Under the pieces are notes generated by a model. That model was not told the origin of the DNA. It did not search any database and was given only the letters and a program-made list of their open reading frames with translations. A stretch of 64,000 nt of DNA from an uncultured Clostridia bacterium (GTDB taxonomy: Bacteria; Bacillota; Clostridia; Christensenellales; Borkfalkiaceae): assembly GCA_947629095.1 (NCBI GenBank), contig CANRCK010000002.1:1-64000 (forward strand), in the 5' to 3' direction. Shown here piece by piece: positions 1 through 52,760 of the stretch. The position numbers were made by a program, and so were the translations under genes. Position 1 is the first letter of the stretch. Every line of letters begins with the position of its first letter.

Positions 1-120
1 TATGTTCATCTAATTGACCAATAGGTGGCATAAATGTTAATTTGTGAATTTGATTTTAACAAATTAACAAAAAAATTAAGCCGCCCGCGCAAATTTTTGC
101 GCGGGCGGCAAGCGTTTTTT
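1..120 (+). repeat. Mini-element, copy A (short UTR, SD, tiny ORF, hairpin)
   Basis: The first 76 bases match 52334-52409 at 75 of 76 positions. The unit reads: a 21-base opening motif (starting TATGTTCA, ending TTGACCAA), an AGGTGG ribosome-binding site, an ATG at 34, an AT-rich tract, then a 14-bp GC-rich hairpin at 80-109 followed by a T6 run at 115-120. The hairpin arms differ in sequence from those of copy B but pair equally well. In this copy the frame opened at 34 has no stop before the hairpin, so translation of a defined peptide is doubtful. The promoter that precedes copy B would lie left of the window edge. Function unknown; it could be a small transcript, a leader, or the end of a mobile repeat. 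Confidence 0.6.
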
Positions 121-14307: not shown

Positions 14308-15134
14308 TTGTCGCCGTCCCTGTAATACGCCTTGAAGGTGTGGTGCGTAACCTGTTTTTCCGCGGGGGGAAGCTGCATATAATCGCCGTAATGCGCCTTT
14401 AAATATTCGTCGTAAGCCGCAATCGCGTAAAATTCCCGCCCTTCGAAGGTAAGCGTTGTCAATTCGGTGAACAGCTCCCGCCTGTAAATTTCCCTTTCGC
14501 GGTAGGCTCCGCCCACGGCGGCGGCATAGGCAACCTTATCGAAATCTATATTTTTATATTTATTTTGCACTTTTTGAAACAGACGCTTTTTGTTAACCAT
14601 GCGGCTAAGAACAAACAGCGCAAAGCGCGCAGGCTCCACGTACCACGGGTGCGTTTTGGAGCGAAAAAAATGCGCCCAGCCCGCCGCGCCTATAAGCGCC
14701 CTTTTAAAAGCCGTGGAACGGAATTTTTTTACAGCCTTTTTATAGCTGTCGGCAAGCCCGTCCACGGGGAAAACGTCTATAAAAACCCCAAAGCCCTGCC
14801 ATTCGCTGCCCGAAACGTCGTCCAGCAAAACCGTGTCGGGATTATAGATTTTTGCGGAAAGATCGCAAAATTCCGCATTTGTTTCAAACGAGCGTATTTT
14901 AAAGCCCGTTTCGTGCGAAAGGCAATAGCTTATGAACGCGTCGTAGTCGGGGCGGGGCATCATTACGTCCACGTCGTCGTCCCACGGGATAAAACCTTTG
15001 TGGCGCACGGCGCCCAAAAGCGTGCCGCCGCCCAGAGAATAGCGATATCCCCTTTCGCGGCAGAGTTTATCGAAGGAAACGAGTAGCTCCGTTTCTATCT
15101 GTTTAAGTTGTTGTGTGTCTATGTATCCGCCCAA
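14304..15134 (-). CDS. LicD-family phosphotransferase
   Basis: LicD proteins transfer a phosphorylated group such as phosphocholine or polyol phosphate from a CDP-linked donor to a glycan. The 276-residue protein has the defining motif near residues 33-60 (YSLGGGTLLGAVRHKGF then IPWDDDVDVMMP), a nucleotidyltransferase-like metal site. The start is TTG at 15134 with GGAGG seven bases upstream. Since the same unit encodes a CTP-dependent cytidylyltransferase, polyol-phosphate decoration is plausible; phosphocholine is an alternative, though no choline kinase is visible here. Confidence 0.87.
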   Translation of the reverse strand: MGGYIDTQQLKQIETELLVSFDKLCRERGYRYSLGGGTLLGAVRHKGFIPWDDDVDVMMPRPDYDAFISYCLSHETGFKIRSFETNAEFCDLSAKIYNPDTVLLDDVSGSEWQGFGVFIDVFPVDGLADSYKKAVKKFRSTAFKRALIGAAGWAHFFRSKTHPWYVEPARFALFVLSRMVNKKRLFQKVQNKYKNIDFDKVAYAAAVGGAYREREIYRRELFTELTTLTFEGREFYAIAAYDEYLKAHYGDYMQLPPAEKQVTHHTFKAYYRDGDK

Positions 15135-49508: not shown

Positions 49509-52136
49509 TTATGCAACCGTTATTGTGCCTGCGCCGCTCACGGCTGTTTCGCTTTCTCCGTTTTTGTATTTAAGGGGAAGCGTGTATTCTTGCAGGTTGT
49601 TGTTTCCTTCGCCGATATTCGCACCAACGCTGAACTTGCCTTCCAAATTTGCGCCTTGAACAATTTCAATCTTTGCGTCTTTCACCACCTGCACTATACC
49701 GCCGACCTTTGCGCCGCTTTCAACCTTGAACGTTCCGCCGGCTTCAACAAAGAATCCGCCGTTTTTATACAGGTCGCCCAAAAGTTCGGGAGTGGGATAT
49801 GACTTGCCGCCCAAAACTTTTTCGCCGTCGCTGTTATAGTCGTCAACGACATAGAATTCGCCGCCGTTTGCAACGCTAAGGGTGCCGCCGTCTTTAACGG
49901 TTATTTTTGCGCCCGGCAGAGCCGCGTATCTGTTTGTAACGGTGAACGTGCAGCCGCTTGTAATTTCAAATTCAAAGTTATAAGATATATAACATAAAAC
50001 CTGTTTTTGAACATCCGGGAATAAATTCAATATAATTCCGGTTTGCACCTTGCCGCTTAAAGTTACGGTGTTTATGCCTATGTCGCCCGCAAGATTTCCT
50101 TCTTTATCGTCCTTAACGGCGTTTTTATAATCGTACTTGATTACAACCGAACCGCCACTCTCCAACGTAAGCAAGCCGCCCTTTTCGGGTGTTTCGTCGC
50201 TGCCTACAAAATAGCCCTCAATGTTGCCGGCAATGCTCAAGCCGCTGCCATCCATATTGATATTTGTTATATTCAACATTCCGCCGTATTTTATTTCAAG
50301 ATTCGTAATGTTGGGCAGGGCGTATCTCATATACGGGAAATTTTTGTGAGAAGTAAGCGAGCTAATTACGCTACTGGCATCAATTGTGTCGGTCACTACT
50401 ATTGGTTCAAACACGGTTGCGCCGCTTTCGGCTGTTACAATGCCGCTATCCTTGCATTTAATGTAGCCGTAAGCGTTCAATTTGCCGCCGTTTTTAACGG
50501 TGATTGTGCCGCTGTTATCTATCTGCCCGTAGTTTCCGCCAACGCAACCGCTATAGCTTGCAGATTGGAATGTTAACAGTTGCGGGCAGCACTCCGCGCC
50601 TATTTCCAAAGTACCCTCAACGGTCAGGTTTGCGCCTGCGGCAATTGTAAGCGTGCACCGCTTGTAGTTTTGATAAGTATAGCCGGTTGCATTGTTTTCT
50701 TTCAGCTCGTCGTCCACCAAAGTTGTTTTTTCTCCCGTGCCCTGACCGGTTTTTATGCCGCCCTCAATGGCATAGGGCACATGCAGGGTTACGTTTTGGG
50801 GAATATTGATACTTTCATTGCCTTGTATTGTATAATTGCTTGCGAGAATGACTTCGCGCGGAAGACCAAATGCCTTTACAGACTCCTCTGCCGCAGCCAA
50901 AGCCTCTTTCAAATCAGTGTAATAGCCGGGCTTATTTTCATCATCTTTGTTGCTGCTCACATACGGCACGGCGGCAAGATTTGCGCCGAAGGTTTTAACG
51001 CTTTCTTTGACCTCTTGAATATGTTGAGAGCTTACCTGCGCACCATATAAGTTTCCACCCATCGATTCGGTCAAAACTTCTATGTTGCCTAACAACACAA
51101 TGTTGCTCAAATCGGAATCGTTAATACTACCGTTGTTGACCACGCTCTCTATGGTATCAGGGATTACAACCACGGCGTTTTCGAGGAAGATTTTGAACAT
51201 ATAAAGATCTAACTTTGTGGTCGCTTCAGGAATAAAAACTCTCGAAGGTGAAACTTTAAGCTTTTTATAGTATTCCTCTGAAGTAGTGATTGTCCTATCA
51301 TAGGTCGATATCTCTTTCCATTGTGAACTTGTTGGACTCACTTCACTTCCGTCAATTGTAGGGGAACTATTATTTTCTTTGTCTACACCTATTACTTTTA
51401 CATCTTCATTATTATTACCTATCTTGATAAATGCCATATCACGACAAGCACCACGGATACCAGGCCATGTATCAAAACAATCAAGAAATACAGACTCATT
51501 TATTAACTTTTTGAAGCCTTCAATTACGGCATCTTTTTTATCAATTTTTATATCACAAATTTTTTTCCATAATGCCTTAAAATTATTCACCATTTCGGAA
51601 TGAGCAGCATCCTTATTCGTATGAATTCGAGTATTATAAAACCCATATATGGCTTCCGCGAGGTCGTTGCCGCCGGTGCTGACTATGGTGTAGTCCTTGA
51701 AAATTTCGGCAAAGGAGAACGGGTTGGGGTCTATTACCAAGGCGCCGTCGGTGGAAACGTCGGCTTCAACCGTTGCCGCCGTGCCGGTGGAAAGTTCTTC
51801 CGTTGTTATGTTGGCTTTGCTAAGGTTGATAAGTTCAAATTTGTTTGCGCTTTGGTGATAGGCAATTATGTTGTCCTTTTTCTTTGTGGTAAGATTGTTC
51901 AAACCGTTGTCCTTTAGCAGTTTGCGCAAATTTTCGGCTGTTGCGGTTTGGTCTGCATAGACTTCAGTCGATAAAACGGTATTCATATTTCTTGTAAGCT
52001 GCAAATCCGCACTGTTGTTGGCGTTGTCAATCACAGATATGAATGTGGGAATGAGAACTGCCGCCAAAACCGCTATAACCGCAATTACGATTACAAGCTC
52101 CACAAGGGTGAAGCCATGTTTGAGTTTTTTTAACAT
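49509..52136 (-). CDS. Giant prepilin-like surface protein (875 aa)
   Basis: The N-terminus is a class III (type IV pilin) signal: basic MLKKLKHG, then FTLVELVIVIAVIAVLAAVL. Cleavage is expected after Gly8 with methylation of Phe9 and a Glu at +5. Residues 10-60 form the pilin spine helix. After a small domain (to about 130) comes a long exposed region. From about residue 460 to the end it is beta-rich, with repeats such as TVKNGGKLNAYGYIK and TVKDGGTLSVANGG that suggest a beta-solenoid. Ordinary pilins have 120-200 residues. No pilus motor, platform or peptidase gene is in the window. An AGGAGG site precedes the ATG. DNA at about 51240-51620 is much poorer in G+C than the rest. Confidence 0.85.
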   Translation of the reverse strand: MLKKLKHGFTLVELVIVIAVIAVLAAVLIPTFISVIDNANNSADLQLTRNMNTVLSTEVYADQTATAENLRKLLKDNGLNNLTTKKKDNIIAYHQSANKFELINLSKANITTEELSTGTAATVEADVSTDGALVIDPNPFSFAEIFKDYTIVSTGGNDLAEAIYGFYNTRIHTNKDAAHSEMVNNFKALWKKICDIKIDKKDAVIEGFKKLINESVFLDCFDTWPGIRGACRDMAFIKIGNNNEDVKVIGVDKENNSSPTIDGSEVSPTSSQWKEISTYDRTITTSEEYYKKLKVSPSRVFIPEATTKLDLYMFKIFLENAVVVIPDTIESVVNNGSINDSDLSNIVLLGNIEVLTESMGGNLYGAQVSSQHIQEVKESVKTFGANLAAVPYVSSNKDDENKPGYYTDLKEALAAAEESVKAFGLPREVILASNYTIQGNESINIPQNVTLHVPYAIEGGIKTGQGTGEKTTLVDDELKENNATGYTYQNYKRCTLTIAAGANLTVEGTLEIGAECCPQLLTFQSASYSGCVGGNYGQIDNSGTITVKNGGKLNAYGYIKCKDSGIVTAESGATVFEPIVVTDTIDASSVISSLTSHKNFPYMRYALPNITNLEIKYGGMLNITNINMDGSGLSIAGNIEGYFVGSDETPEKGGLLTLESGGSVVIKYDYKNAVKDDKEGNLAGDIGINTVTLSGKVQTGIILNLFPDVQKQVLCYISYNFEFEITSGCTFTVTNRYAALPGAKITVKDGGTLSVANGGEFYVVDDYNSDGEKVLGGKSYPTPELLGDLYKNGGFFVEAGGTFKVESGAKVGGIVQVVKDAKIEIVQGANLEGKFSVGANIGEGNNNLQEYTLPLKYKNGESETAVSGAGTITVA

Positions 52137-52209
52137 TTATTATCCTCCTGTTTGTTTCTATCAATTTGCGTTCATCAGTTGGTCAATTAGGTGAACATAG
52201 CGGCAAATG

Positions 52210-52237
52210 ATTTTAACAAAACAGGGGGGCAAGTGAA
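52210..52237 (-). promoter_or_regulatory. Candidate promoter of the prepilin-like gene
   Basis: On the minus strand TTCACT (52232-52237), 16 bases, TAAAAT (52210-52215) with TGT in front (extended -10). The predicted start is near 52203, four bases before the inverted-repeat arm. Other AT-rich matches occur nearby, so the exact promoter is uncertain. Confidence 0.5.
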
Positions 52238-52293
52238 CATTATTAGCGGTAAAATTTTAAAAAATCACACATACGATAAATTTTTTTAAATTA

Positions 52294-52323
52294 TTGACAA
52301 ATTTTAAATTAATATGATAAAAT
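52294..52323 (+). promoter_or_regulatory. Promoter of mini-element copy B
   Basis: TTGACA (52294-52299), 18 bases, TAAAAT (52318-52323). The predicted start is near 52330, just before the right inverted-repeat arm. Confidence 0.7.
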
Positions 52324-52333
52324 ATCAATTGTG

Positions 52334-52450
52334 TATGTTCATCTAATTGACCAATAGGTGGCACAAATGTTAATTTGTGAATTTGATTTTAACAAATTAA
52401 CAAAAAAATAATGCGGCGGGCGCGAAAAAATTCGCGCCCGCCGCAAGCGT
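52334..52450 (+). ncRNA. Mini-element copy B: short transcript with 14-codon ORF and hairpin
   Basis: Downstream of a good promoter come the 21-base motif, an AGGTGG ribosome-binding site, an ATG at 52367, fourteen codons (MLICEFDFNKLTKK) and a TAA at 52409-52411. One base later begins a 14-bp hairpin (52413-52444, arm GCGGCGGGCGCGAA). Copy A has the same layout with different, equally paired arms. Here the hairpin is not followed by a T run. No plus-strand gene follows, so it is an orphan transcript: a small RNA, a tiny peptide gene, or a remnant of a leader. Confidence 0.4.
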
Positions 52451-52516
52451 ATCGCTTGAGCTTAGTATCTTAATTGCGTTGCAACTTGACTTGCATTTTA
52501 GCACATCAAACTTTAG

Positions 52517-52760
52517 ACAATCCCCTCAGTCTCGCGCTGCTCGACAGCTTTCTCACACGGCGTAAGGGCAACGCCGTGTTCGGGCACCGTGCGCGCCTTG
52601 CACTATGCGCGCACTCTTCTCGCTTCGGCACGCACAGCACACCGTGCTGTGCTATGAAATGCCTCGCTCGTCCTTACTAAGGGGAGCCAAGTTTGGGGCG
52701 TGTTGTAACCAGCCCACATTTTACTAAAGGTGGGGGCGGGCAGACGAGGCACCCCTCCCC
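52517..52760 (-). repeat. Dispersed noncoding repeat, copy 4
   Basis: 52517-52688 is the inverted counterpart of 125-297; it contains the core at 52517-52549, a GCACAGCAC-type hairpin and the GGGGAGCC end. The following 52696-52750 resembles 379-428. A hairpin with T5 (52799-52817, GTTGC/GCAAC) sits between this copy and the ABC transporter stop. No gene is visible in 52451-52826. Confidence 0.75.

Follow-up and report, generated by a model that had tools for sequence, protein, structure and literature searches.

An invertible promoter segment just upstream of a giant prepilin-like gene is the reading that we favour for the inverted repeats near position 52,200 of the window, that is, of the whole 64,000-nucleotide stretch analysed here (bases 1-64000 of contig C2, 290,912 bp). 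At a probability of roughly 0.92, this segment would be a promoter inverton flipped by a tyrosine recombinase acting in trans, thereby switching the prepilin-like gene. The initial annotation had left the choice between an invertible switch and an operator shared by two divergent promoters, and the former is now strongly supported by opposite orientations of such segments in genus-mates, by a family of related recombination cores and by recombinases of the right clade. Because relatives carry matching segments oppositely at sister pilin genes, the window locus is very probably a DNA switch for surface proteins. The features discussed below are as follows.

1..115, + strand: distal flank of a second switch, aligned to 52334-52450 with 1 mismatch in the first 76 bp (alignment)
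4..30, + strand: third core, identical to the distal core (joint matrix rank 1)
49509..52136, - strand: putatively controlled gene, encoding an 875-aa prepilin-like protein (open reading frame and profile matches)
52144..52149, - strand: AGGAGG, predicted ribosome-binding site of the prepilin-like gene (direct reading)
52170..52196, - strand: gene-proximal core GTTCACCTA-ATTGACCAA-CTGATGAAC, in the order inner half-site, spacer, outer half-site (matrix rank 3 of 63,974)
52179..52199, - strand: 21-bp arm within the limits first annotated, corresponding to inner half-site plus spacer (sequence comparison)
52197..52336, no strand: putative invertible segment of 140 bp between the two cores (core placement)
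52210..52237, - strand: weaker promoter match TTCACT-16-TAAAAT, 9/12 with TG, toward the gene (consensus match)
52294..52323, + strand: strong promoter match TTGACA-18-TAAAAT, 11/12, TG before the -10, away from the prepilin gene (consensus match)
52301..52328, - strand: promoter-like TTGATA-16-TAAAAT, 10/12, toward the gene, 113 nt before the proximal spacer (consensus match)
52334..52354, + strand: 21-bp arm within the limits first annotated (sequence comparison)
52337..52363, + strand: gene-distal core GTTCATCTA-ATTGACCAA-TAGGTGGCA (joint matrix rank 1; placed by hand)
52412..52445, - strand: intrinsic-terminator-like hairpin just outside the distal core, oriented toward the gene (computed hairpin)

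The arms described in the initial annotation were recovered exactly: they are 21 nt long, match at 20 of 21 positions (95% complementary) and lie 134 nt apart. They form the sole inverted pair in the window at a length of at least 21 bp with at most one mismatch and a gap of 60-400 bp, and no pair of such quality appeared in 60 dinucleotide shuffles. The locus thus has the inverted repeats around a short segment that are expected of a promoter inverton. Matches to Rfam families were all far below the gathering scores.

The most direct evidence for inversion comes from paralogous genes within two genus-mates. In genome G067, the prepilin genes on contigs C3 and C5 have near-identical flanks and identical 29-bp arms, between which the segment is reversed; once one copy is reverse-complemented, the two differ at 3 positions in 178 bp. 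The same arrangement is present at the prepilin genes on contigs C6 and C15 of genome G069, where 182 bp are identical after reversal. Both orientations are found at homologous loci, and within each pair a TTGAC- promoter at the usual distance points to just one of the two genes.

Comparison of 19 invertons from the genus indicates how the arms are built, as they resolve into 27-bp cores composed of a 9-bp half-site, a 9-bp spacer and a second 9-bp half-site. The central seven spacer bases are equal between arms in 14 of the 19 automatically placed invertons, and in the remaining five, the window with its distal arm included, one arm was placed out of register by the script. The length between cores is 120-144 bp in the 18 other placed invertons except for 184 bp in G080:C38 and 102 bp in G065, where one arm is out of register. 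The spacer ATTGACCAA is identical at 9/9 positions in all three window cores (proximal-distal identity by direct reading), and the single arm mismatch falls in a half-site and leaves the spacer unaffected; the window repeats therefore resemble recombinase sites with a matching spacer. The initial annotation had described a TGTTCA-N6-TGACCA dyad in each arm. We reject it as the functional symmetry, as the inverton alignment and the matrix described below point instead to the 27-bp 9-9-9 core, which is what the family conserves.

A half-site matrix built from 25 cores other than those of the window gave the window cores scores of 16.01, 16.01 and 13.93, corresponding to ranks 1, 1 and 3 of 63,974 27-mers, with the next at 9.84, and the ranks were the same when the cores on contig C1 of the same genome were also left out. 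Three or more 27-mers at the level of the window cores were found in 0 of 100 dinucleotide shuffles. At least one 27-mer scoring 13.9 or more occurred in 16 of 100 such shuffles, so a single score of this size is not rare (in mononucleotide shuffles of the window, a 27-mer reached at least 14.3 in 15 of 50), and the window cores are not three independent hits because they are near-copies of each other. In the real window there are only three high scorers, all in one exact register on the arms. The inner half-sites match the clade-type GTTCAYCTA exactly, and the outer ones match poorly, at 2.42 and 3.86 bits vs 11.96 and 12.6 for the inner ones; the outer half-sites differ among the window cores, as they likewise do in some other switches, for example those of G000:C1 (G000 being the genome of the window) and G069. 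A core pattern allowing up to three mismatches, chosen after these cores were known, found five sites in the own genome, two on C1 and three on C2, and its reversed control found 0.

The initial annotation had also proposed a promoter facing each way. This holds, as consensus matches are present on both strands of the segment, but they are of unequal strength. The -10 of the strong + strand match ends 22 nt before the distal spacer, and the -10 of the weaker match at 52210..52237 ends 22 nt before the proximal one; overall, the gene-facing matches on the - strand number one at 10/12 and three at 9/12. The segment would therefore contain outward promoters, judged by consensus. In 15 of the 15 invertons tested, a subset of the 19 placed ones, the -10 of a promoter match of at least 9/12 ends 19-29 nt short of a spacer, while 1.37 of 15 would be expected in shuffled segments. 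The direction of these promoters was read as toward the presumed gene in 7 and away from it in 8, the gene side in G013 and G076 being a guess. Reversing the window segment in silico puts TTGACA-18-TAAAAT before the gene and leaves the AGGAGG leader intact. Hairpins similar to that at 52412..52445, and likewise directed at the gene, occur beyond the distal core at the contig start as well as in G067:C5, G069:C6 and G080:C52. Two further elements were observed around the segment. An exact 13-bp direct repeat, TGATTTTAACAAA, is found at 52208-52220, inside the segment where it carries a - strand -10, and again at 52384-52396, just beyond the distal core. A 14-codon open reading frame at 52367-52411 (+), with an AGGTGG ribosome-site-like sequence, would be part of the outward transcript; the contig-start copy at 34-78 lacks its stop.

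The 875-aa protein begins with a predicted prepilin cleavage/methylation motif (Pfam N_methyl PF07963, E 5.6e-7; TIGR02532, 27.8 bits, above the cut-off of 16.3), as expected of a type IV prepilin. A protein search with its sequence in 93 genus genomes gave matches in 10, the own genome counted, and several of these homologs have perfect inverted repeats just upstream. Among the 32 prepilin homologs examined, an upstream inverted repeat is present in 8, absent in 16 and unjudgeable in 8, where the contig ends within 200 bp upstream; 7 of the 32, the window included, are of the recognised switch type, since the G012 homolog with a repeat lacks the 9-9-9 core. This set left out G000:C13, G080:C53 and G076:C21, which have no N-terminal match or a cut 5' end, and four matches without a locus (G091:C38, C4 and C1; G012:C56:668). 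The giant prepilin gene of G080:C52, whose product is 42% identical to the window protein, has 27-bp arms 144 bp apart. Two prepilin homologs of the own genome, at G000:C2:279048 and C2:270377, have no such repeat upstream. The same is true of the prepilin genes that belong to the main pilus operons of G067, G069 and G080, operons which were recognised by eye from gene lists. Two kinds of repeat stand apart from these. The prepilin genes of loci L081 and L082 (G018:C130, G012:C56) are preceded by inverted repeats that surround GTATAC-type sequences, are unlike the 9-9-9 core and possibly represent another switch class. On G067:C9 (L212 / L217), a prepilin-like 1162-aa frame has 19-bp inverted repeats upstream and adjoins a recombinase in two pieces.

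The window also holds part of a second switch, which the initial annotation had missed. An arm copy at 1-21, identical to 52334-52354, forms the very first bases of contig C2, and because the likeness runs through 1-115 vs 52334-52450, the distal switch flank exists twice, its second copy being cut at the arm. The hairpin at 80-109 of this flank differs in sequence from that at 52412-52445. The third core at 4-30 therefore places the beginning of contig C2 in the far flank of a second switch. The right end of contig C13 carries a giant prepilin paralog with its 5' part cut off, in an order that fits it as the partner of C2:1; no overlap between the two ends was found. Comparable ends are seen in relatives. 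G067:C19 stops 26 bp beyond a lone core whose flank and first segment bases match the C3 switch by eye, and G067:C27 breaks off within roughly the first 18 codons of another prepilin gene, so that a third G067 switch appears to be split over two contigs; on G025:C8, too, a lone core is followed by the contig end after 58 bp. Contigs would end at cores if switch copies were near-identical, and equally if orientations were mixed. Three of the eight homologs with a nearby contig end (G018:C133, G067:C27, G080:C48) end inside N-terminal codons. A dispersed intergenic repeat of ~180 bp, the "mini-element" of the initial annotation, was observed beyond the hairpin at both window loci, at 121-301 and 52512-52692 in opposite orientations, and a similar-looking stretch flanks a recombinase gene on contig C5 (L046:2503-2640).

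As the initial annotation had stated, the window encodes no recombinase (no PF00239 or PF00589 match); none was found beside the switch, and the nearest is on another contig. Its suggestion that a serine or tyrosine recombinase be sought elsewhere in the genome was borne out by four PF00239 and three PF00589 proteins. One of the latter, P0002 (C1:151090-152001, 304 aa), is a tyrosine recombinase with a Pfam Phage_integrase domain; among solved structures it matches Int proteins best, and its match to the NCBIfam "tyrosine-type DNA invertase" model is weak (23.1 bits vs a cut-off of 222). P0002 directly adjoins an inverton of the own genome, with 21-bp arms and a promoter between them (L106:7888-8061 = G000:C1:150887-151060), and two of the five own-genome cores flank this promoter segment. 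The C1 inverton spacer differs from that of the window cores, and its promoter points away from the neighbouring open frame, which has a signal-like N-terminus, no Pfam match and a length of 2515 aa or more. A paralog of P0002 lies on contig C5, with no core or repeat nearby, and the genome thus has two recombinases of this clade with whole catalytic-domain matches. Further members of this inverton family were observed in G021, G025 and G080 (L168, L169, L170, L166), where they precede very long frames (lower bounds of 1841-2505 aa) whose N-termini are secretion- or lipoprotein-like. The third tyrosine recombinase, of 267 aa (L045, G000:C1:239302-242739), lies between genes in opposite orientations that look by eye, without a family search, like type I restriction-specificity genes, and this is possibly a phase-variable specificity locus.

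Of the 93 genomes, 41 encode a P0002 homolog at E<=1e-20. A palindromic core lies 3' of the P0002-type gene in 19 of 46 cases, 6-347 bp away, and on the 5' side in 1 of 46; some of these flanks are cut by contig ends, and 19/46 is a lower figure because the filter was strict (at least 8 of 9 half-site pairs) and passed over even the C1 cores already known. A tree of the 46 matches, without outgroup and without the weaker or partial ones (e.g. a 59% partial match in G091), groups P0002 and its C5 paralog with recombinases of G067, G071, G073 and G081 (local support 0.99), and a wider clade adds those of G021, G025, G058 and G072 (0.85). Cores of the form TTCATCTATT-N5-AATAGATGAA with at most one mismatch are found in 5 of 93 genomes (G000, in its C1 cores, G021, G025, G067 and G071), which amounts to 5/9 genomes in the wider P0002 clade vs 0/84 outside it (2.4e-6, post hoc). 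The window cores do not fit this form and have the half-site GTTCAYCTA in common with it. A different clade, of the recombinases of G080:C48, G069:C7 and G067:C6 (0.97), goes with ACATAGAA-type cores, which at one mismatch or fewer are found in G069 and G080 only (2/93). Because core type goes with recombinase clade, the window site is most likely served in trans by P0002 or by its C5 paralog. Around the prepilin switches of G067 and G069, two in each genome, no P0002-type match (E<=1e-20) was found out to 40 kb.

Of the readings that dispense with inversion, the shared operator takes each arm as a transcription-factor site at the start of two divergent transcripts, consistent with the position of each arm just past a predicted -10 and with its imperfect dyad, a self-match with two mismatches. 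Such a site might be expected at other promoters. In the own genome, however, the arm is confined to the inverted pair and to the second copy of its distal flank, and a looser search adds one 1-mismatch site inside 14456-14473 and seven 3-mismatch sites. Across 92 genus-mates, an 18-letter arm pattern with up to two mismatches gave five isolated hits vs 14 for the reversed-pattern control, and thus nothing above noise; the site was not found to recur singly at other promoters. Seven single hits in unrelated organisms of the species-genome collection and 14 in viral contigs, considered as a possible regulon, were taken as chance, and the same arm was not found outside the own genome in the genus-mate, species-genome or viral-contig searches. 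What the family conserves is the longer core instead of the short dyad. The operator also leaves the segments inverted between paralogs unexplained, and we regard it as highly improbable. More improbable still is that 52179-52354 is a small MITE-like mobile element with terminal inverted repeats. The 21-bp inverted pair and the dispersed intergenic repeats nearby would suit such an element, but inversion between the arms is seen in homologs, and the assembled genome holds no further copy of the interior, only short matches at E >= 0.03; at the contig-start copy the interior is not visible because the contig begins at the arm.

Two other explanations accept the inverton and differ in its present activity or in its enzyme. 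The switch may be frozen, an inverton by ancestry that is inactive here because its recombinase was lost or is blind to degenerate outer half-sites. The low-scoring outer half-sites, the one mismatch between the arms, the absence of an adjacent recombinase and the broken recombinase copies in the relative G067:C9 are consistent with this, but the inner half-sites and the spacer are intact in all three copies, the genome has two clade recombinases with whole catalytic-domain matches, and outer half-sites vary in other switches too; we consider a frozen switch unlikely, with some weight still to be given to it. Palindromic cores also suit serine invertases, and the four PF00239 proteins of the genome (frames of 517-616 aa) could in principle turn the switch in place of a tyrosine recombinase. 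That cores lie just 3' of P0002-type genes and that their type goes with the tyrosine recombinase clade speaks against this, as does the finding that around the four serine recombinase genes there is no inverted repeat of at least 16 bp and none of the five cores, which makes a serine recombinase a very doubtful candidate.

For a promoter inverton served by a tyrosine recombinase, the sequence features suggest the following mechanism. The inverted 27-bp cores at 52170-52196 and 52337-52363, flanking the 140-bp segment with its two unequal outward promoters, would be paired by a tyrosine recombinase encoded on another contig (P0002 on C1 or its paralog on C5), and strand exchange within the common spacer ATTGACCAA would flip the segment. 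The assembled orientation, in which the strong promoter would fire away from the prepilin-like gene and the weaker ones face it, is probably the OFF or LOW state. After inversion TTGACA-18-TAAAAT would read through the proximal core and the AGGAGG leader into the gene, giving an ON or HIGH state; since a weaker match at the same 22-nt distance faces the gene, the contrast may be one of HIGH against LOW and not of ON against OFF. Read-through from upstream would be kept away from the gene by the hairpin beyond the distal core. The same core is carried by at least one other locus of the genome, which the contig start truncates.

By its anatomy, the window locus is a tyrosine-recombinase promoter inverton, here apparently serving a group of prepilin genes. 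Both invertible promoters and the phase variation of pilins have been described before. The fim system of E. coli belongs to a chaperone-usher fimbria and has one locus with the recombinases beside it; its fimS element is described as an invertible promoter for a pilus gene, turned by FimB and FimE, whereas the candidate recombinases here are on other contigs. Piv is the enzyme of the Moraxella bovis pilin inversion. In that organism DNA inversion is reported to underlie pilin phase variation (Marrs 1988), and the pilin genes themselves are inverted, in contrast to the promoter segments at several separate loci seen here. The RecV switches of Clostridioides difficile are closer in their tyrosine recombinase, short inverted repeats, invertible segments and trans action, as one tyrosine recombinase is described as needed at several remote invertible sites; among their repeats, those of Cdi2 and Cdi5 are identical and the others are described as unrelated to each other (PMC5903667). 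They differ in genus and in that the targets here are prepilin-like. By description, the locus also resembles inverton group 139 and invertase group 35 of gut Clostridia, in which invertons are tied to a nearby tyrosine-type recombinase family (PMC11892184); the main text of that paper has 0 occurrences of 'pilin', 'pili' and 'type IV'. In open-licence PubMed Central, the search for 'inverton' together with 'prepilin' returned no paper, and dispersed prepilin genes under one promoter-switch family were found in none of the literature searched there, PMC11868660 included, among the matches listed.

We tentatively extend this to the genus, as a model that we hold to be possible, somewhat short of an even chance: a tyrosine recombinase acting in trans would control scattered prepilin genes, each with its own switch of the same core, and each cell would end up with some combination of pilin-like surface proteins, perhaps with just one at a time, the prepilin of the core pilus operon remaining unswitched. 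Contig ends in such genomes, our observations suggest, can mark repeated or mixed switches. Such switches would give the genus a testable means of varying its surface, and a 27-bp site model together with candidate recombinases is now at hand for the whole genus.
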